This document shows, one piece after another, positions 8,573 through 62,436 of a stretch of DNA of 64,000 nt. A program made the translations under genes and the position numbers. Source of the stretch: Agromyces allii (lineage in GTDB: Bacteria > Actinomycetota > Actinomycetes > Actinomycetales > Microbacteriaceae); assembly GCF_009749385.1 (NCBI RefSeq), contig NZ_WBIN01000002.1, positions 248,001 to 312,000 of the forward strand, read 5' to 3'. Every line of letters begins with the position of its first letter. Position 1 is the stretch's first letter. Under the pieces are notes generated by a model. That model was not told the DNA's origin. It worked only from the letters and a program-made list of their open reading frames with translations, and did not search any database.

Positions 8573-11500
8573 GTGTACCCGCGTACCCCCGACGAGAACG
8601 GCGTCGCCGCGTCGCCCGACTTCCCCGCAGGCGAGCGCGACGTGCTCGCCTACTGGAACGCCGACGGAACCTTCCAGGCGTCGATCGACCAGCGCGAGGG
8701 CTCGCCCGAGTGGGTCTTCTACGACGGCCCGCCGTTCGCCAACGGCCTGCCGCACTACGGCCACCTCCTCACGGGCTACGCGAAAGACGTCTTCCCGCGC
8801 TTCCAGACCATGCGCGGCAAGCAGGTGCACCGCCGCTTCGGCTGGGACACGCACGGCCTGCCCGCCGAGCTCGAGGCCGAGCGCCAGCTCGGCATCACCG
8901 ACAAGGTGCAGATCGAGGAGATGGGCATCGCGGCATTCAACGAGGCCGCACGCTCATCGGTGCTCCGTTACACCAAGGAGTGGCAGGAGTACGTCACGCG
9001 CTCCGCGCGCTGGGTCGACTTCGACAACGACTACAAGACGCTCGACACGACCTACATGGAGTCCGTGATCTGGGCGTTCAAGCAGCTGCACGAGAAGGGG
9101 CTCGCCTACGAGGGCCACCGCGTGCTCCCGTACTGCTGGCGCGACCAGACGCCGCTGTCCAACCACGAGCTGCGCATGGACGACGACGTCTACAAGATGC
9201 GTCAGGACCAGACCGTCACGGTGACCTTCCCGCTCACGGGCGCGAAGGCCGAGTCGCTCGGCCTCACCGCCGTGCGCGCGCTCGCCTGGACGACGACCCC
9301 CTGGACCCTCCCCACCAACTTCGCCCTCGCCGTCGGACCCGACATCGAGTACGCCGTCGTCCCCGCAGGGCCCAACGGCACCCCCGACGCCACGGTGCTG
9401 CGCGAGAAGGCCGCGGGCGCGGCATCCGACACCGAGGTGCTCGGCGGCGAGTACCTGATCGCCGTCGACCTGCTCGGCGGCTACGCGAAGGACCTCGGGT
9501 ACGAGTCGGCCGACGACGCGCGCGCCGCGGTCTCGCGCACCGTGCGCGGCTCCGAGCTCGAGGGCGTCACCTACGATCGCCTGTTCGACTACTACGCCGA
9601 CGTCGACGAGTACGGGCTCCAGAACGCCTGGCAGATCCTCGTCGCCGACTACGTCACGACCGAAGACGGCACGGGCATCGTGCACCAGGCGCCCGCCTAC
9701 GGCGAGGAGGACCAGAAGATCGGAGAGGCCGCCGGCATCCCCGTGATCCTCTCGCTCGACGAGGGCGGCCGCTTCAAGGCCGAGGTGACGGATGTCGCGG
9801 GCGAGCTGTGGAGCGACGCGAACAAGCCGCTCACGCAGCTGCTGAAGGCCGAGGGCCGGCTGCTGCGCCAGGCGAGCTACGAGCACTCGTACCCGCACTG
9901 CTGGCGGTGCCGCAACCCGCTGATCTACAAGGCCGTGTCGAGCTGGTTCATCCGCGTTCCCGAGTTCCGCGACCGCATGGGCGAGCTCAACCAGGAGATC
10001 AGCTGGGTGCCCGAGAACGTCAAGGACGGGCAGTTCGGCAAGTGGGTCGCGGGCGCCCGCGACTGGTCGGTCAGCCGCAACCGCTACTTCGGCTCGCCGA
10101 TCCCCGTGTGGAAGAGCGACGACCCCGAGCACCCCCGCGTCGACGTCTACGGCTCGCTCGAGGAGATCCAGCGCGACTTCGGGCGCCTGCCGCTGAACGC
10201 GGCGGGGGAGCCCGACCTGCACCGGCCGTACATCGACGACCTCACGCGCCCGAACCCCGACGACCCGACGGGGCGCTCGACGATGCGCCGCATCCCCGAC
10301 GTGCTCGACGTCTGGTTCGACTCGGGATCGATGCCGTTCGCGCAGGTGCACTACCCGTTCGAGAACCGCGACTGGTTCGACACGCACCACCCGGCCGACT
10401 TCATCGTCGAGTACATCGGGCAGACGCGCGGCTGGTTCTACGTCATGCACGTGCTGTCGACCGCGATCTTCGATCGCCCCGCGTACAAGAACGTCATCAG
10501 CCACGGCATCGTGCTGGGCAGCGACGGCCAGAAGATGTCCAAGTCGCTGCGCAACTACCCCGACGTCTCCGAGGTCTTCGACCGCGACGGCTCCGACGCC
10601 ATGCGCTGGTTCCTGATGTCGAGCCCGGTGCTGCGCGGCGGCAACCTCATCGTGACCGAGGAGGGCATCCGCGAGGGCGTCCGACAGGTCATGCTGCCGC
10701 TCTGGAGCACGTGGTACTTCTTCTCGCTCTACGCCAACACGGCGCGAGCGGGCGGCTACGAGGCATCCGCTCGCACCGACTCGACCGACGTGCTCGACCG
10801 GTACCTCTTCGCGAAGCTTCGCGACCTGGTGGCCGACGTGACCACCGATCTCGAGAACCTCGACTCGACGCTCGCCTCGGCGAAGCTCCGCGACTTCGCC
10901 GATGTGCTCACGAACTGGTACGTGCGCCGGTCGCGCGACCGGTTCTGGGCGGGCGTGCCCGACGGCGCCTCGTCGAGCGAGGCGTTCGACACGCTGTTCA
11001 CCGTGCTCGAGACGTTCACGCGCCTCGCCGCGCCGCTGCTGCCGCTCACGAGCGAGCAGGTCTGGCGCGGGCTCACGGGCGGGCGCAGCGTGCACCTGAC
11101 CGACTGGCCCGAGGCCGAGCAGTTCCCGGCCGACGATGCGCTCGTCGCCGCCATGGACGCCGTGCGCGAGATCAGCGGATCCGTGCTCGCACTGCGCAAG
11201 CAGGCCGGTCGCCGCGTGCGGCTTCCGCTCGCCTCGCTCACGGTCGTGACGACGGATGCCGCGGCGCTGGCGCCGTTCGAATCGATCCTGCGCGACGAGC
11301 TCAACGTCAAGGCGGTCTCGCTCGTCGAGCTCGACGCCTCGAGCGCCGAGGCCTACGGCGTGACCAAGCGCCTCAGCGTCAACGCGCGCGCGGCCGGACC
11401 CCGTCTCGGCAAGACCGTGCAGCAGGCGATCCAGGCGGCCCGCACGGGCGACTGGACCCTCGACGGCGACACGGTCGTCGCGGGCGGCATCGCGCTCGAA

Positions 11501-55089: not shown

Positions 55090-55962
55090 TCAGGCCGGCG
55101 CCGTGACGAAGTCGATGAGCTCCTCGACGCGCGCCAGCAGCGCGGGTTCGAGGTCGCCGTACCCGCGCACCTGGCCCAGGATGCGCTGCCAGGCCCTCGC
55201 GATGTCGGCCTGTTCGGCGTGCGGCCAGCCGAACGCCTCGCAGACCCCGTGCTTCCACTCGGTGCCTCGGGGAATGACCGGCCACGCCTCACGGCCGATG
55301 CGCGCAGGCTTCACGGCCTGCCAGACGTCGATGTACGGGTGACCGACGACGAGCACGTTCGCTCGGTGCGGCCCGCGCATGACGGCGTCGGCGATGCGCT
55401 GCTCCTTCGAGCCGGGCACGAGGTGGTCGACGAGGATCCCGGCGCGACGCCCGGGGCCGGGCTTGAAGTCGTCGAGTTGCTCGGCGAGCACGTCGACGCC
55501 CTCGAGGTACTCGACGACGACGCCCTCGACGCGGAGGTCGGCACCCCACACCTTCTCGACGAGCTCGGCGTCGTGCCGGCCCTCGACGAAGATGCGGCTC
55601 GGCAGCGCGACCTTCGCCTTCGCCTGCGCCGCGTCGACGGCGAACGACCCCGAGGCGGTGCGCAGCCGCCCCGCGGGCGCCTTCGGCTTGGGGCGCACGA
55701 GCTGCACGGCCTCGCCGTCGACGAGGAACCCGTGGCCGAGCGGGAACATGCGGGTCTTGCCGAAGCGGTCCTCGAGGGTCACATGCTGCGCGTTCACGGC
55801 GACGACCGCGCCGCAGTACCCGTCGGACGCGAGCTCGACGACGAGATCGCGCTCGGCCTCGACGGTCGGGATCACGCGTCGCCCGCGCGCCTTCCAGTCG
55901 CCGGCGAGCACATCGTCGCCGTAGCGGTCGGGTCCGTTCGAGGTGTGGGTCGGGTTCGGCAC
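55090..55962 (-). CDS. DUF3097 protein with a Toprim-like segment
   Basis: Cytoplasmic protein of 290 residues found across actinobacteria; function unknown. The N-terminal part (VIPTVEAERDLVVELASDGY, VTLEDRFGKTRMFPLGHGF) looks like a small beta-barrel. The middle has LPSRIFVEGRHDAELVEKVW followed by ILVDHLVPGSKE, which resembles the Glu motif and following Asp of Toprim nucleotidyl-transfer domains, although the second Asp of DxD is not evident. A role in nucleic-acid metabolism is inference. It lies 9 bp downstream of dnaE2 on the same strand and may belong to the SOS operon. Confidence 0.88.
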   Translation of the reverse strand: MPNPTHTSNGPDRYGDDVLAGDWKARGRRVIPTVEAERDLVVELASDGYCGAVVAVNAQHVTLEDRFGKTRMFPLGHGFLVDGEAVQLVRPKPKAPAGRLRTASGSFAVDAAQAKAKVALPSRIFVEGRHDAELVEKVWGADLRVEGVVVEYLEGVDVLAEQLDDFKPGPGRRAGILVDHLVPGSKEQRIADAVMRGPHRANVLVVGHPYIDVWQAVKPARIGREAWPVIPRGTEWKHGVCEAFGWPHAEQADIARAWQRILGQVRGYGDLEPALLARVEELIDFVTAPA

Positions 55963-55971
55963 CGGACGAGG

Positions 55972-58900
55972 CTAACGGAAGTCGCGTGACCGCAGCGGCG
56001 CCGACACGGTGAGCCGTTCGAACCGGTCGGCGACGAGGTTCACGACCCCTTGCTCGGAGCGTTCGAGGATGCCGCGGATGACCATCGCGGGCGCCTCCCG
56101 CGCCACGCGCCGGTACCGCTGCCACACGCCGACGCTCGCGATCACGTTGACCGTGCCGGCTTCGTCTTCGAGGTTCATGAACGTGATGCCGCTCGCCGTC
56201 GCAGGCCGCTGCCGATGCGTGACCACGCCCGCGATCTCGATGCGCCGGCCGTTCTCGGTCGTGCGCAGCAGGTCGCTGCGCACCACCCCGCGTTCGTCGA
56301 GGCGTTCCCGCACGTGGCGCATCGGGTGGTCGTCGGGCGAGATGCCCGTGGCCCACAGGTCGTACACGACCTGCTCGGCGGGGGAGAGGAACGGCAGCAA
56401 CGGCGGCTGCACCACGACGACCGAGCCCTCGAGGAACTCCTCGCGGTCCTGCGCGGCCTCGCCCGCGAGCCAGAGCGCCTGGCGACGCCCGAGGCGGAAG
56501 CCGGCGAACGCCCCGGCCGCGGCGAGCGCCTCGAGCTGCTCCGTCGAGAGACCTGCCCTGCGGGAGACATCCGCCATGTCGCGGTACGGCCCGCGGGCAT
56601 CGCGCTCGGCCACGATGCGCTCGGCCACGGCGAGGCCGATCGAGGAGACGTCGGCGAGGCCGAGCCGCACCGCGAACGCGCCGTCGCGCCGGTGCTCCGC
56701 CGAGCGATCGGGTGCCTCGCGCACGAACTTCTCGACGGGCGGCTGCACGGGGTCGGCGCACGAGGGCATGCCGGTCGGCTCGCGGCATCCGTCGTCCGAT
56801 GCTCCGGATGCCGCAGCAGCACCTGATGCGCCCGGCACGCCCTGAGCACCGCCACCGAGCGGTTCGAGCCCCGCATGCACGCCGGACCGCAGGATGTCGG
56901 GCCGACGCACCTCGACGCCGTGGCGGCGGGCGTCGGCCGTGAGGGTCTGCGGCGAGTAGAAGCCCATGGGCTGGGCGCGCAGCAGCGCCGCGAGGAACGC
57001 CGCGGGGTGGTGCAGCTTCAGCCACGAGCTCGCGTAGACCAGCAGGCCGAAGCTCAGCGCATGGCTCTCGGCGAACCCGAAGTTCGCGAACGCCTCGATC
57101 TTGGCGTAGATGGAGTCGGCGACCTCGGGCTCGATGCCGTTCTCGGCCATGCCCTTGTAGAGCTTCGCGCGCAGCCGGTCGATCTTCTCGACGCCGCGCT
57201 TGGAGCCCATGGCGCGGCGCAGCAGGTCGGCATCGGCGGCGCTGCAGTTGCCCACGGCGACGGCCATCTGCATGAGCTGCTCCTGGAAGAGCGGCACCCC
57301 GAGCGTGCGCTCGAGCACCGGCTCCAGCTTGGGATGCAGGTAGCTGATCTTCTCCTCACCCGTTCGACGGCGGATGTAGGGATGCACGGCACCGCCCTGC
57401 ACCGGGCCGGGCCTGATGAGCGCGATCTCGACGACGAGGTCGTAGAAGCACCGCGGCTGCAACCGGGGGAGCGTGCCCATCTGCGCGCGGGACTCGACCT
57501 GGAACACGCCGATCGAGTCGGCACGGCACAGCATGTCGTAGACCGCGGCCTCCTCTTTCGGGATGGTGGCGAGCTCCCACGTCTCGCCCGTGTGGTCGCG
57601 CACGAGGTCGAACGTGTACTGGAGGGCGGCGAGCATGCCGAGGCCCAGCAGGTCGAACTTGACGAGGCCCATCCACGCGCAGTCGTCCTTGTCCCATTGG
57701 AGCACCGTGCGGCGCTCCTTGCGCGCGTGCTCGATGGGGCACACCTCGCCGACCGGTCGGTCGGTGAGCACCATGCCGCCCGAGTGGATGCCGAGGTGCC
57801 GTGGGAAGCTCAGCAGCTGCGAGGCGAGCTCGACCACCGGCTCGGGGATGTCGTGGTCATCGGTGTTCACGACCGCGCCCCAGCGCTCGACCTGCCGGCT
57901 CCAGGCGTCTTGCTGACCCGTCGAGAAGCCGAGCGCCTTCGCCATGTCGCGCACCGCGGCCTTCGGGCGGTAGCTGATGACGTTCGCGACCTGGGCGGCG
58001 TTCATGCGCCCGTACTTCTCGTAGACGTACTGGATGATCTCCTCGCGACGGTCGGAGTCGAAGTCGACGTCGATGTCGGGCTCCTCGTCGCGGAGCGCCG
58101 AGAGGAACCGCTCGAACGGCAGGTCGTAGAAGATCGAGTCGACCGCGGTGATGCGCAGCACGTAGCAGACCGCCGAGTTCGCCGCCGACCCGCGCCCCTG
58201 GCAGAGGATGCCCCGCCGCCGGGCCTCGTGCACCAGGTCGTGCACGATGAGGAAGTAGCCGGGGAAGTCCTTCTGCTCGATGACGTCGAGCTCGCGCGCG
58301 AGGCGTTCGCGCACGTGCTCGGGCACGCCGGGGTAGAGCTCGGCCGCACCTCGCCAGGTGAGCTCGCGCAGCCAGCTCATGGGCGTGTGCCCCTCTGGGA
58401 CCTTCTGCTTCGGCAGCCGCGGCCTGGCGCTGCGCAGCGTGAACCCGAGCTCGGCCGCGAGCGTCGCCGACCGCGCGACCGCACCGGGGTAGCGGGCGAA
58501 CCGCTCGGCCATCTCGGCCCCCGAGCGCAGGTGCAGGCCGTCGGATGCGGGCAGCCACCCGTCGAGCTCGTCGAGGCTGCGCCGGGCGCGCACCGCGGCG
58601 AGCGCCGACGCGAGCCGGTGCTCGCCCGGCGTGGCGTAGTGCACGGCGTTCGTCGCGAGCAGCGGCAGGCGCGCGCGTTCGGCGAGCGCGGCGAGCTGGT
58701 CGTTGGCCTGCTGGTCGAGCGGATGCCCGTGGTCGAACAGCTCGACGACGACGTGGTCGCGCCCGAAGAGGGCGATCAGCCGGTCGAGCTCGCGCCACGC
58801 GGCATCGGGTCCGACGCTCGCGAGCGCACGGCGGACCATGCCCTTGCGGCATCCGGTGGGGATGATCCATTCATCGCCGGAATGCTCGGCGAGCGCCTCG

Positions 58901-59436
58901 AGCGAGTACACGGGCCGCCCCTTCTCGCCGCCGGCGAGCTGGCCCTCGGTGATCGCGCTCGCGAGACGGTGGTAGCCCTCCTGCTGCCTCGCGAGCACGA
59001 GCAGGTGCTCGCCCTCGGGGTCGGCGGCGCCCATCTGCGGCTCGGTGAGGCCGAGCGAGAGCTCGGCGCCGAAGACGGTCTCGAGCTCGGGGAAGCTCTC
59101 GGCGGCCTCGGCGAACCGCACGACGCCGTAGAACCCGTCGTGGTCGGTGACCGCGAGTCCCGTGAGACCCAGTCGGTGCGCCTCCTCGACGAGCTGCTCG
59201 GGTGCCGAGGCGCCGTCGAGGAAGCTGTACGTGGAGTGCGCGTGCAGCTCGGCGTACGGGACGACCGGCCCGGTCGGCGCCTCGAGGCCCTCGGAAGGGC
59301 GGTACGGATGCCGCTTGCGGCTGAACGCCGGACCGTCGCCGCCGTCGGCGATGAGCGCGGGCGCCCCCGGTCGCCGCCGATCGGAGAGCTTGCGTTCGAG
59401 CTCCGACCACGGGATGCCCGGATTGTTCCAGCCCAT
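55972..59436 (-). CDS. dnaE2: Error-prone DNA polymerase DnaE2
   Basis: C-family polymerase for mutagenic translesion synthesis with ImuA' and ImuB. The 1154-residue protein starts MGWNNPGIPWSELERKLSDR, typical of DnaE2. The PHP domain has AELHAHSTYSFLDG (HAHS 65-68) and TDHDGFYG; the polymerase site is PDIDVDFD at 453-460; the region near 550-560 is IHSGGMVLTDR. The tail has an OB domain (VVTHRQRPATASGITFMNLEDE). Residues about 858-916 are an Ala/Gly/Pro-rich insert ending in acidic/basic text, unlike the rest. ATG 59436 is used; imuB's stop is 28 bp upstream. Expected to be LexA-controlled. Confidence 0.95.
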   Translation of the reverse strand: MGWNNPGIPWSELERKLSDRRRPGAPALIADGGDGPAFSRKRHPYRPSEGLEAPTGPVVPYAELHAHSTYSFLDGASAPEQLVEEAHRLGLTGLAVTDHDGFYGVVRFAEAAESFPELETVFGAELSLGLTEPQMGAADPEGEHLLVLARQQEGYHRLASAITEGQLAGGEKGRPVYSLEALAEHSGDEWIIPTGCRKGMVRRALASVGPDAAWRELDRLIALFGRDHVVVELFDHGHPLDQQANDQLAALAERARLPLLATNAVHYATPGEHRLASALAAVRARRSLDELDGWLPASDGLHLRSGAEMAERFARYPGAVARSATLAAELGFTLRSARPRLPKQKVPEGHTPMSWLRELTWRGAAELYPGVPEHVRERLARELDVIEQKDFPGYFLIVHDLVHEARRRGILCQGRGSAANSAVCYVLRITAVDSIFYDLPFERFLSALRDEEPDIDVDFDSDRREEIIQYVYEKYGRMNAAQVANVISYRPKAAVRDMAKALGFSTGQQDAWSRQVERWGAVVNTDDHDIPEPVVELASQLLSFPRHLGIHSGGMVLTDRPVGEVCPIEHARKERRTVLQWDKDDCAWMGLVKFDLLGLGMLAALQYTFDLVRDHTGETWELATIPKEEAAVYDMLCRADSIGVFQVESRAQMGTLPRLQPRCFYDLVVEIALIRPGPVQGGAVHPYIRRRTGEEKISYLHPKLEPVLERTLGVPLFQEQLMQMAVAVGNCSAADADLLRRAMGSKRGVEKIDRLRAKLYKGMAENGIEPEVADSIYAKIEAFANFGFAESHALSFGLLVYASSWLKLHHPAAFLAALLRAQPMGFYSPQTLTADARRHGVEVRRPDILRSGVHAGLEPLGGGAQGVPGASGAAAASGASDDGCREPTGMPSCADPVQPPVEKFVREAPDRSAEHRRDGAFAVRLGLADVSSIGLAVAERIVAERDARGPYRDMADVSRRAGLSTEQLEALAAAGAFAGFRLGRRQALWLAGEAAQDREEFLEGSVVVVQPPLLPFLSPAEQVVYDLWATGISPDDHPMRHVRERLDERGVVRSDLLRTTENGRRIEIAGVVTHRQRPATASGITFMNLEDEAGTVNVIASVGVWQRYRRVAREAPAMVIRGILERSEQGVVNLVADRFERLTVSAPLRSRDFR

Positions 59437-59464
59437 CAGCGGCACCGCCCCGTCATCATGTGCA

Positions 59465-61117
59465 TCAGTCGTACCTCGCCTCGGCCCACCAGCCGTCGCC
59501 GTCGCGCACGAGCAGCCACGCGCACCCGTCGTCGTCGACGATCTGGAAGCGGTGCACGCGCTTGGCCGCCGCCGGATCCCACCAGCGCTCGACGACCGGC
59601 CACGGGCCCGCCCAGGCGCGCACGGGCCGTGCTCCGAACCCGTCGGTGCGGCGAGCGGGGCCGCCGCTCGTCGCACCGCCCACGGCGAACCGCTCGGGCA
59701 CCGCCGAGATGACCCCACGGGCGTCGATCGCGACATCCGCCCCTCTCGCATCGAGCAGCGCGACGGGCCGCCGTTCGCGGAACACGCTCGCAGGGGCGAG
59801 CGCCGGCAGGCTGCCGGGCCACGGCGCGTCGCCCTCCCGGCCGGCCCCGCGCTCGGGCGGGCGGTCTCCCCACGGCACGAGCACCTGGCGGTCGGCGAGC
59901 ATGCGCCCGCCGCCGACCGACGCGGTGACGACGGCGTCGTGGCCGAGCATGCTCTGCACGCGCGTGAGCCCGTGATGCACGCGTTCGTCGGGGCCGCCGC
60001 CCCAGAGCCCCTCCTCGTGGTTGCCCGTGGAGTCGATGCGTTCGGGGATCACGCGCAGCCGCACGATCGGCGAGGCCAGGCCCGCATCGGCCATGCCCGC
60101 GCCCTGCAGCTGCCAGCGCACCCGGTCGATGACGTCGGCGGGCGTGAACCACCGCGGGTGCAGCCAGCTCCGGCTCGAGCGCCCGCCGCGCTCGTCGTCG
60201 ATCTCGACCCGGAGCCCGGTGCACACGAGGCGGACGTCGCGCATGCGCTGGATGAAGCCCTCTGCGCCGACGCGGAACGCGAACGCGAGCTGGTCGATGC
60301 GGTCGAGCGGCGGCTCGAAGTGCTGCTCGACCTCGAACTCGGGCGGGGGAGTGCGAGCGAGCACCCGGGCCTGTTCGCGGCCGGCGGCACGGTCGTGGGC
60401 GAACGCGCCGGCCGCGCCGAACCTGCGGCGCACGTCGGCCTCGGGCAGTGCGGCGAACTCGCCCAGGGTGCGCACGCCGAGGCGGTTCAGCAGGGTGCAC
60501 GTGCGCTGGTCGGTCACGAGCGCCACGGGCAGCGGGGCGATGAAGGCGGCGGATGCCCCGGGCTCGACGATCTCGACCCGGGCGCCCATGTCGGCCCCGC
60601 CGTCGGCCCCGCGCGCGGCTGCGCTCGGCTTCGCGGCCCGGGCTGCACGGGCCGCACGGGCCGCCTGTTCGGCCGCGAACGGCCCGTCGGCGATGCCGAC
60701 CCCGGAGCCCTCGAGGCCGAGGGCCTCGAGGGTCGCGAGCAGCGCGGATGCCGCGGCGGACTCGCTCCCGTAGTAGCGGGCGGGCCCACGGGCGCGCATG
60801 GCGAGCGTGCCGGGTCGCACGACCTGCACTCCGGGCACGGTCTGCTCGACCTGGCGCACGACGGGTTCGAACACGCGCACGTCGAGTTCGACGTCGTACT
60901 CGTGCACCGCGAGCTCCGGACACCGCAGCTGGGCCTCGCGGAGCTTCAGCCCCCGCATGACCCCGGACGCGCGAGCGGCGGCCGAGCAGGCGAACACGAG
61001 CCCGTGGTCGATGAGCGCGATCGGGGTGTCTGCGTCGAGGCCGAGGTCGCGGCAGACGGCGCGGATCGGCCAGTCCGGGCACCACAGCACGATCGTGCGG
61101 CCGGGTTCGACGTTCAT
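59465..61117 (-). CDS. imuB: ImuB-like inactive Y-family polymerase
   Basis: Adapter of the mutasome that binds the beta clamp and recruits DnaE2. The 550-residue protein has a Y-family fold but the first acidic motif is IVLWCPDWPIRAV (residues 9-21) instead of DxDxFFA, and the later motif reads RYYGSESAAASALL; the catalytic aspartates are missing, as in mycobacterial ImuB. HhH-like and little-finger regions follow (LNRLGVRTLGEFAALPEADV). An AAR tripeptide repeat occurs at about 151-163. ATG 61117 overlaps the imuA' stop by ATGA. Confidence 0.92.
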   Translation of the reverse strand: MNVEPGRTIVLWCPDWPIRAVCRDLGLDADTPIALIDHGLVFACSAAARASGVMRGLKLREAQLRCPELAVHEYDVELDVRVFEPVVRQVEQTVPGVQVVRPGTLAMRARGPARYYGSESAAASALLATLEALGLEGSGVGIADGPFAAEQAARAARAARAAKPSAAARGADGGADMGARVEIVEPGASAAFIAPLPVALVTDQRTCTLLNRLGVRTLGEFAALPEADVRRRFGAAGAFAHDRAAGREQARVLARTPPPEFEVEQHFEPPLDRIDQLAFAFRVGAEGFIQRMRDVRLVCTGLRVEIDDERGGRSSRSWLHPRWFTPADVIDRVRWQLQGAGMADAGLASPIVRLRVIPERIDSTGNHEEGLWGGGPDERVHHGLTRVQSMLGHDAVVTASVGGGRMLADRQVLVPWGDRPPERGAGREGDAPWPGSLPALAPASVFRERRPVALLDARGADVAIDARGVISAVPERFAVGGATSGGPARRTDGFGARPVRAWAGPWPVVERWWDPAAAKRVHRFQIVDDDGCAWLLVRDGDGWWAEARYD

Positions 61118-61917
61118 CCGGCCCTCCGTCGTGCTTCGCCGACGAGTCCGAGCGCCGGGTTCGCCCTCGCCCGTCGCCTGAGCGAGAGGGCCGAAGACGG
61201 GGCCGCAGGCGCCGCCCCGCCGAACGAGGGAGCTGCGGGCAGGCGTTCGACGGGCACGGCCGCGAACTCGAGCGACCGCCCTGGCAGGCGCAGCCGGGAG
61301 CCGGCCCGGCGCACGAACTCGCCCCGACCCGCGACCTCCACGACCGCCTCGCGGTCGACGAGATGCCCGTGCCCGCGTTCGATGCCGTGCCACTGGCTGG
61401 CCGAGACCCCGAGCCGCGCGTCGCTGCCGGGCCACGCACCCGCCACGAGGAGCGTGGTGCCGCGCTGACGGAGCCGGGCCTGCAGTCGACTCGCCTCGGC
61501 GGGGGAGACCTGCCCCACGGGCCGCACGGCGACAACGGGGATCACATCGGCGAGCGCCGCGGCGACGGCGAGCCACTGGTCGCCCGGGTCTGGGACGAGC
61601 GCGAGGCGTTCGAGCGCGATGCCGAAGCGCGCGGCCGCCTCGACCCCGAACTCGGGCATGCCGACGACGGCCGCCCAGCGCCCGTCGGCGCTCGGCCCGG
61701 CGAGCAGCGCCATGAGGAGGGTCATCGACCCCTCGACCTGCACGATCGTGCCCTCGCGGAGCGTGCCGCCCGGCAGCACGTCGGCGAAGGCTGGATGCGT
61801 CGGCACGGCCTTGGTCTCGAGCCGCGTGCTCTGCATGCCGCGGATGCGGGCCTGCAGCTCCTCGACGCGCGCGGCACGGGGTGCACGCGGTGCGGCGTCG
61901 GGGAGGGGAGCGGTCAT
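61114..61917 (-). CDS. ImuA'-like mutasome protein
   Basis: RecA-fold partner of ImuB, 267 residues. ADVLPGGTLREGTIVQVEGS is the degenerate P-loop region of ImuA-type proteins (no GKS/T), followed by WAAVVGMPEFGVEAAARFGI and RQRGTTLLVAGAW. Residue similarity to ImuA' is distant, and position before imuB-dnaE2 supports the call. I chose ATG 61917, 9 nt after GGAG; upstream in-frame ATGs at 61953 and 61941 fall in the LexA box or its flank and are rejected. First gene of the SOS operon. Confidence 0.8.
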   Translation of the reverse strand: MTAPLPDAAPRAPRAARVEELQARIRGMQSTRLETKAVPTHPAFADVLPGGTLREGTIVQVEGSMTLLMALLAGPSADGRWAAVVGMPEFGVEAAARFGIALERLALVPDPGDQWLAVAAALADVIPVVAVRPVGQVSPAEASRLQARLRQRGTTLLVAGAWPGSDARLGVSASQWHGIERGHGHLVDREAVVEVAGRGEFVRRAGSRLRLPGRSLEFAAVPVERLPAAPSFGGAAPAAPSSALSLRRRARANPALGLVGEARRRAG

Positions 61918-61932
61918 GGTCACCGCTCCAGT

Positions 61933-61950
61933 TTCGAACATATGTTCGAA
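61933..61950. promoter_or_regulatory. LexA (SOS) box
   Basis: TTCGAACATATGTTCGAA is an 18-bp perfect palindrome containing TCGAAC-ATAT-GTTCGA, the actinobacterial LexA consensus (known for Mycobacterium). On the minus strand it lies between TTGCCG (61958-61953) and GAAACT (17 bp later), so LexA would cover the promoter core. It is 16 bp upstream of the imuA' ATG. Confidence 0.93.
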
Positions 61951-62098
61951 CACGGCAAGTCGGATGCACCGAACGTCCGCATCCGGAGTGGAACCGGGGC
62001 GAGCATGGCGGTGCGCCGGGAGTGAGCGCGGAAGGGAGCGGGGAAGCGCCCACGGGATGAACCCAGGAACCGAGCCGGGAAACGACCCCGGAAATGCA

Positions 62099-62132
62099 AG
62101 AAGGCCCGGATCGAAACCGATCCGGGCCTTCT
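62099..62132 (-). terminator. Terminator after tRNA-Leu
   Basis: Arms 62099-62113 and 62118-62132 pair perfectly over 15 bp around AAAC. Placed 11 nt after the tRNA-Leu 3' end on the minus strand, it should end the tRNA transcript. The remaining 180 bp up to the imuA' promoter show nothing I can name. Confidence 0.8.
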
Positions 62133-62143
62133 CGACACAAGCG

Positions 62144-62229
62144 TGCGCGAGGGGGGACTTGAACCCCCACGCCCGTTAGGGCACTAGCACCTCAAGCTAG
62201 CGCGTCTGCCATTTCCGCCACCCGCGCTT
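62144..62229 (-). tRNA. tRNA-Leu (GAG)
   Basis: An 86-nt class II tRNA with a long variable arm. The acceptor GCGCGGG pairs with CTCGCGC, discriminator A. The anticodon stem is CTAGC-TTGAGGT-GCTAG, anticodon GAG, reading CTC, and the T arm is GGGGGTTCAAGTCCCCC. CCA is not encoded. The 200 bp between it and the divergent M20 gene show TAATGT as a possible -10 on the minus strand, with no clear -35. Confidence 0.95.
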
Positions 62230-62436
62230 GTGTCTGCCTCGCGATTTCTCGCTCGGCAACGAGATGAAACATTAGCACGGTTCCGAACGCGCTTTTGACC
62301 ACGGGGGTCGTTTGCACCGCGGGATTCAGGACTTTCCGAGCCTGAAGCGCCGATCAGGGCCATGTTCCGATTTTCGCATGTCGCCGCATCGCGACAGCCG
62401 TCGCCCCGATCGACGGCGGCGGCTACGGTGAAGGGC

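Follow-up and report, generated by a model that had tools for sequence, protein, structure and literature searches.

Do the SOS mutagenesis genes imuA', imuB and dnaE2 of Agromyces allii form one LexA-controlled unit, how does its transcript begin, and does the DUF3097 gene that lies directly behind dnaE2 belong to it? These questions are raised by a 64,000-nucleotide stretch of contig NZ_WBIN01000002.1 (positions 248,001 to 312,000), hereafter the window, in which a first-pass annotation had described the three genes as an operon behind a perfect LexA box. The best explanation of the locus as a whole, and one that we regard as very likely, is an actinobacterial SOS mutasome cassette that would be transcribed as a single LexA-repressed unit, probably on a leaderless messenger RNA (mRNA), with DUF3097 as a neighbour that has a putative promoter of its own. 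The elements of the cassette, in coordinates of the window, are the following.

61953 to 61958, minus strand: -35 hexamer TTGCCG of the predicted imuA' promoter
61933 to 61950, no strand assigned: predicted LexA operator, an 18-base-pair (bp) palindrome
61930 to 61935, minus strand: -10 hexamer GAAACT, its first two bases common to the 16-bp core of the palindrome
61114 to 61923, minus strand: imuA' (269 amino acids from GTG 61923; alternative start ATG 61917)
59465 to 61117, minus strand: imuB (550 amino acids), predicted to be a catalytically dead Y-family homologue
55972 to 59436, minus strand: dnaE2, error-prone C-family polymerase, with its TAG stop codon at 55974-55972

The perfect palindrome TTCGAACATATGTTCGAA (61950-61933, minus strand) stands ahead of imuA'-imuB-dnaE2, and its 16-bp core, TCGAAC-N4-GTTCGA (61949-61934), has no second exact occurrence in the window. 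The coordinates bear out the earlier claim that it lies between TTGCCG and GAAACT. These two hexamers are 17 bp apart, and the predicted LexA operator fills this promoter spacer. Matches to the core with at most two mismatches numbered 14 in the window against 4.07 expected, a count that none of 100 shuffles reached. Genome-wide, five exact cores were found in 4.36 megabases and the backwards pattern was found nowhere, while the simple base composition of the window would predict about 0.08 exact cores per genome.

The arrangement is conserved in relatives. Our family sample comprised 150 Microbacteriaceae genomes, with ImuA' above its cut-off in 107 and DnaE2 likewise in 107; our own imuA' list holds 108 genomes, as it adds a truncated match below the cut-off (G269). 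Both genes were present in 107 genomes, seven of which, having the two on separate contigs, do not enter the locus counts, and one genome (G245) has imuA' and no dnaE2 match above the cut-off. The remaining 100 family loci include that of the window. Scanning about 460 bp at each, we found the best box before imuA' to have zero, one, two or three mismatches in 64, 31, 4 and 1 loci, respectively, so that 95 of 100 have no more than one. The same stringency was reached in 28 of 3600 random control windows, which at 270 bp were narrower than the locus scan and some of which may overlap real boxes. Among the 95 loci with such a box, 81 combine TTG at -35 with an xAnnnT -10 across a 17-bp spacer, and the family promoter consensus of the 95 reads TTGAC, three bases, the box and the final -10 bases. 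A TCGAAC-N4-GTTCGA operator that stands at a promoter and is kept in relatives points to membership of the LexA regulon.

Exact LexA boxes were also seen in two other settings. At locus L005 (1-1520) one stands ahead of an open reading frame with intein-type matches, LAGLIDADG_3 scoring above its cut-off and Intein_splicing (32.6 bits) below its cut-off of 35.8; judged by eye, the product is like a radical S-adenosylmethionine protein. At L001 (1501-1794) another lies 17 bp ahead of the ATG of an 87-amino-acid reading frame that has no Pfam match.

The three genes behind the operator encode the protein families of a mutasome. The 267-amino-acid version of ImuA' scored 182 bits against NF058630 (cut-off 65), and its profile, aligned to RecA (E 1.9e-05), showed a five-residue gap and no lysine at the Walker A motif GPESSGKT of RecA. 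The imuB product matched PF00817 (IMS) with 41.6 bits; in the alignment of its profile to DNA polymerase IV the acidic SIDEA stretch lies opposite non-acidic residues, and the first acidic motif, which falls outside that alignment, was judged by eye only. A single-sequence search of the PDB with ImuB gave no match at E 0.001. The dnaE2 product scored 1458 bits against the DnaE2 model NF004225 (cut-off 939; the query began one codon upstream of the ATG, at 59439), fell below the cut-off of the DnaE1 equivalog NF004226 (696 against 1002) and passed the general superfamily model TIGR00594 (615 against 434). The active polymerase of the cassette should be DnaE2.

The gene junctions are tight, and the overlap and gap that had been reported between these genes hold at the level of single bases: imuA' and imuB share the ATGA at 61117-61114, the stop codon of imuB ends at 59465, and dnaE2 begins with the ATG at 59436 after a gap of 28 bp. 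A search of the minus strand within imuA'-imuB-dnaE2 found no terminator-like site. Wherever imuA' and dnaE2 share a contig (100 of 100 genomes) they share a strand as well, and dnaE2 is the downstream gene; a second copy of imuA' and dnaE2 in G157 was left out of this count. The imuB gene was identified in all 100 family loci, every time between the other two and on their strand. Moreover, the 250 bp ahead of dnaE2 contain a second box with no more than one mismatch in none of the 84 loci in which the gap between imuB and dnaE2 is shorter than 150 bp, against 5 of 16 in which it is larger (Fisher P 5.8e-5); dnaE2 starts are estimates here, and four of the close-gap values fall below -100. This difference between close-gap and distant-gap loci speaks for one LexA-controlled transcript. 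Four of the five second boxes are exact (L021, L059, L075 and L098, from genomes G164, G216, G243 and G277); there the gap after imuB measures 0.75-2.2 kilobases (kb), the box lies 23-25 bp before the estimated start of dnaE2, and an in-frame GTG follows 9-10 bp past the box in all four. No such GTG follows the fifth box, which has one mismatch (G280).

The same layout extends to the order. In 20 loci picked for spread from its other families, imuA' and imuB were present in all 20 and dnaE2 lay in the same stretch in 18, and the closest match to the box within 500 bp differed from it at zero, one or two positions in 14, 3 and 3 loci, respectively. Taken together, the family and order counts make the contiguous LexA-boxed cassette the rule in the genomes examined. 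Conservation gives good support to the earlier proposal of a single LexA-controlled unit (95 of 100 boxes before imuA', none of 84 before a close dnaE2). Contiguity, as the family norm, is no special feature of this genome. The cassette is standard for its group, and the contiguous layout is already known and not new.

How the transcript begins can be read from the spacing of operator and start codon. An in-frame GTG at 61923 lies 10 bp past the 16-bp core, two codons ahead of the ATG at 61917, and six bases separate it from GAAACT. Across the family, 77 of 95 loci have their first in-frame ATG or GTG exactly 10 bp past the box, and 85 have it 9-11 bp past. A control in which the start was shifted to 91 positions lying 30-120 bases further upstream gave a mean of 1.1, a median of 0 and a maximum of 31 of 95. 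The first-pass annotation had placed imuA' correctly behind the box and let it begin at ATG 61917; with the 10-bp spacing so widely kept, the start is probably GTG 61923 instead. In actinobacteria, a -10 element that ends some 6-7 bases short of the start codon marks leaderless transcripts, and this spacing is found at imuA'. Because the -10 sits six bases before the conserved start GTG 61923, the imuA' mRNA is probably leaderless. By eye, lexA and recA of this genome lack this geometry of box and start and look leadered. It is possible, although we advance it only tentatively and on balance doubt it, that the SOS mutagenesis branch of the Microbacteriaceae is built throughout as leaderless mRNA, with an operator that serves as promoter spacer and transcription that starts on the start codon itself. 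In line with this, the geometry recurs where a displaced dnaE2 has an exact box of its own (4 of 4). Among the paper titles listed in the literature searched, none concerned leaderless SOS promoters in actinobacteria, and in PMC8072749 and PMC13388538 the word 'leaderless' occurs in the reference lists only.

Several observations weigh against this account. A sigma-70 scan of the region found no promoter, and both GAAACT and TTGCCG are weak matches to the consensus. ATG 61917 is a possible start, and the GGAG 8 bp upstream of it could act as its ribosome site if transcription begins earlier. A further in-frame GTG stands a short way upstream of the imuA' -35 in 31 of 95 family loci (for example in L023, L024 and L035; the loci scanned for it fall within L013-L108), and it is these loci that account for the highest control value of 31. 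Outside the family, the first in-frame ATG or GTG lies 9-11 bp past the box in 6 of 20 loci, or in 8 of 20 when the second such codon is allowed, and therefore the geometry is not general there. As for the single transcript, 11 of the 16 large-gap genomes have no second box, and the genomes are related, so that the counts are not independent and the second-box test is weaker than its P value. Lastly, boxes with two mismatches are not rare, as 11 sites with at most two mismatches occur in 18 kb around lexA and recA. On the supporting side, the genome has a single LexA, encoded on another contig (C17), and less perfect boxes lie before recA (two with one mismatch, one with two) and before lexA (two with two mismatches).

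The mechanism that we propose is as follows. LexA on the palindrome would cover the spacer between -35 and -10 and so shut the imuA' promoter. When DNA is damaged, LexA cleaves itself under the action of RecA and repression is lifted. Transcription would then begin at or next to GTG 61923, and ImuA' (a RecA-like protein that lacks the Walker A lysine), ImuB (as a dead Y-family adaptor) and DnaE2 (as the polymerase) would be made together, forming a mutasome that carries out error-prone lesion bypass. Mutasome assembly for error-prone bypass once LexA is cleared is described in the available parts of PMC10421592, PMC12926913 and PMC6511836. DUF3097, behind dnaE2, would use its own promoter, which starts from the dnaE2 stop codon, and may receive SOS read-through. 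The features that flank the cassette are the following.

55969 to 55974, minus strand: putative DUF3097 -10 element TAGCCT, its TAG being the stop codon of dnaE2
55090 to 55962, minus strand: DUF3097 gene (290 amino acids, GTG start), product predicted to be TOPRIM-like (PF11296 257.6 bits, PF22845 85.1 bits)
62143 to 62227, minus strand: tRNA-Leu(gag), the next gene upstream of the cassette

DUF3097 starts 9 bp past the stop codon of dnaE2, and its nearest named relatives are from Agromyces (85% identity at L109, 87% at L110). The family is widespread, being present in 125 of 150 family, 124 of 149 order and 40 of 60 class genomes with one match each. Within 20 kb of the cassette it was found in 13 family genomes, out of 101 that carry both and 51 that carry both on one contig; all 13 are on the same strand, seven downstream of dnaE2 and six upstream of imuA'. 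Among the 80 best named DUF3097 matches, 31 follow dnaE2 and one precedes imuA'. Six of these 80 loci are shorter than 12 kb, and L151 has 3.7 kb before DUF3097; linkage is therefore uncertain in some of the rows counted as unlinked. A DUF3097 tree of 116 rows requires no fewer than eight changes between the linked, upstream and unlinked states; it is a quick tree under a simple model, with 41 of 111 branches open. In the 20 loci outside the family, hrcA (18 loci) and lepA (14 loci) were recognised by eye near DUF3097.

A promoter pattern travels with the gene. The motif TANNNT precedes an in-frame ATG or GTG by 5-8 bases in 34 of 34 downstream, 5 of 5 upstream and 38 of 54 unlinked DUF3097 genes and in 13 of 16 from other families. 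By comparison, none of the 31 dnaE2 starts showed it, and random positions did so in 8 of 2000 cases. Genes without an anchor were dropped from this test (4 of 38 downstream, 14 of 68 unlinked, 1 of 6 upstream and 4 of 20 from other families), and its dnaE2 control covers 31 of 100 starts. Two loci appear under two names, L127 being L078 (downstream) and L153 being L222 (unlinked), and are counted twice in the tree, in the TANNNT test and in the overlap counts. The -10 begins on the TAG stop of dnaE2 in 15 of 38 downstream loci, that of the window included, and in loci with 21-3246 bp between the two genes it is DUF3097 that keeps the pattern. These data suggest that DUF3097 has a putative leaderless-type promoter of its own, whose -10 here starts on the dnaE2 stop codon.

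Against this background three other readings can be weighed. Expression of dnaE2 apart from imuA'-imuB, from a promoter in the 3' end of imuB or in the 28-bp gap, would have a parallel in mycobacteria, in which dnaE2 is the separate part of a split cassette according to the available text of PMC10421592, and the gap leaves room for some elements. Yet none of the 84 close-gap genomes has a LexA box with up to one mismatch before dnaE2, TANNNT precedes none of the 31 testable dnaE2 starts, and no promoter-like match was found in the region. We consider this reading very unlikely. The sequence TTGTCRGTG, which we take to be the PafBC motif, was not found with up to one mismatch at 61900-62300, around the imuA' promoter, and its nearest sites lie at 59141 and 63615. 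The family may use another form of the motif, and control of the mycobacterial cassette genes by both PafBC and LexA is described in the portion of PMC10421592 available to us, but additional PafBC responsiveness of the cassette seems improbable to us.

The remaining reading, in which DUF3097 is a true fourth cistron of the SOS operon and works with the mutasome, was the one first favoured, because only 9 bp part it from dnaE2. Besides this gap, it could draw on the same-strand linkage in 13 of 51 genomes and the position behind dnaE2 in 31 of the 80 best named matches, on the terminator search between dnaE2 and DUF3097, which found no such site, and on a predicted model that resembles a nucleic-acid enzyme. 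It was downgraded by the promoter test, the LexA-box test and the loci free of the cassette. The gene has its own promoter pattern in front; even when one mismatch was allowed, a LexA box was absent from unlinked copies (0 of 40 and 0 of 48); 38 of the 51 genomes with cassette and DUF3097 on one contig have them unlinked; and DUF3097 occurs in 24 family genomes in which ImuA' found no match. In Agromyces ramosus (L110, 7724-8914) a major facilitator superfamily transporter gene sits between dnaE2 and DUF3097 on the same strand. Moreover, DUF3097 is kept between the same flanks in 17 of 17 Cryobacterium loci that have no cassette there (L140, L143, L153 and others, at about 8850-9000), both flanks being as in the cassette-bearing relatives L134 and L161 against which they were compared; the sequences of ten of them were also inspected, and in one of the 17, L142, other sequence of about 1 kb lies between. 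The other flank is an SRAP gene, which scored 207 bits in L134 and 203 bits in L140, the two loci tested. The SRAP family has already been linked to the imuA'-imuB-dnaE2 cassette in the accessible part of PMC3765255, and this neighbour would favour loss of the cassette over gain in Cryobacterium. Membership of DUF3097 in the operon is thus quite unlikely in our view, and we keep to a three-gene unit with DUF3097 as a separately promoted neighbour. Co-occurrence was also considered as a sign of partnership (DUF3097 in 101 of 108 imuA' genomes but also in 24 of 42 others) and was not used as evidence. In several other Agromyces loci the gap between dnaE2 and DUF3097 measures 1.3-1.6 kb.

What DUF3097 might do was approached through a predicted structure. 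The model, built from 43 sequences, has a mean predicted local distance difference test score (pLDDT) of 87.5 and a predicted template modelling score (pTM) of 0.63; its alignment (A1) was made without L207, L215, L218, L217, L220, L221 and L227 from the 40 loci fetched. A sequence search of the PDB gave two matches, at E 0.8-1.0, and none that was significant. Foldseek against the PDB placed OLD proteins in its top five rows, at E 1.4e-3 to 3.4e-3 and so with no value as low as 0.001. In VIA-align OLD proteins again take the first five rows, with Z 8.6-9.8, followed by the TOPRIM domain of T7 primase (7.0), a small TOPRIM protein (6.7) and GajA (6.6); unrelated receiver domains such as DivK reach 6.6 on this scale, and PDB folds outside the rows listed may also be similar. 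Residues E127, D179, E187 and D212 are invariant in the 43 sequences and fit a TOPRIM-type site. The predicted fold may thus resemble the TOPRIM domain of OLD-family nucleases, its best structural matches, and a nuclease or related activity is inferred from the model. The proposed likeness has limits: DUF3097 lacks the OLD ATPase domain, for which its 290 amino acids leave no room, and it has a small barrel-like N-terminal domain that weakly resembles small barrels such as Rpp29 (Z about 6). One paper in the literature searched names DUF3097, and the model may offer this family its first structural hint.

These findings have wider consequences if the proposed unit is correct. They indicate that stress mutagenesis may be switched as a unit across a large group of actinobacteria. 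Lineages that have moved dnaE2 out of the operon provide a natural test, as some of them carry the same LexA promoter before dnaE2, and the fixed distance from operator to start makes a leaderless mutasome mRNA directly testable. If the whole branch were leaderless, mutagenesis would also be gated by the way in which ribosomes handle leaderless mRNA under stress.

The closest known system is the mycobacterial mutasome of ImuA', ImuB and DnaE2, with which the cassette has three protein families and LexA control in common, to judge from the available parts of PMC10421592 and PMC12926913. The mycobacterial mutasome belongs to the actinobacterial ImuA2-ImuB2 type, and our cassette is likened to it by protein families and not by a tree. 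Two differences are apparent. The mycobacterial cassette is split into imuA'-imuB and dnaE2, a contrast that the first-pass annotation had drawn correctly as far as PMC10421592 could be consulted, whereas here the genes are contiguous behind one operator; and mycobacteria use PafBC control, whereas the motif TTGTCRGTG was not found at 61900-62300 here. Both contiguous and split imuA-imuB-dnaE2 cassettes are described in the available text of PMC3919608 and PMC8072749. The contiguous ones of other bacteria form one LexA-controlled unit, as the cassette of A. allii would, but here lexA lies outside the unit, on contig C17.

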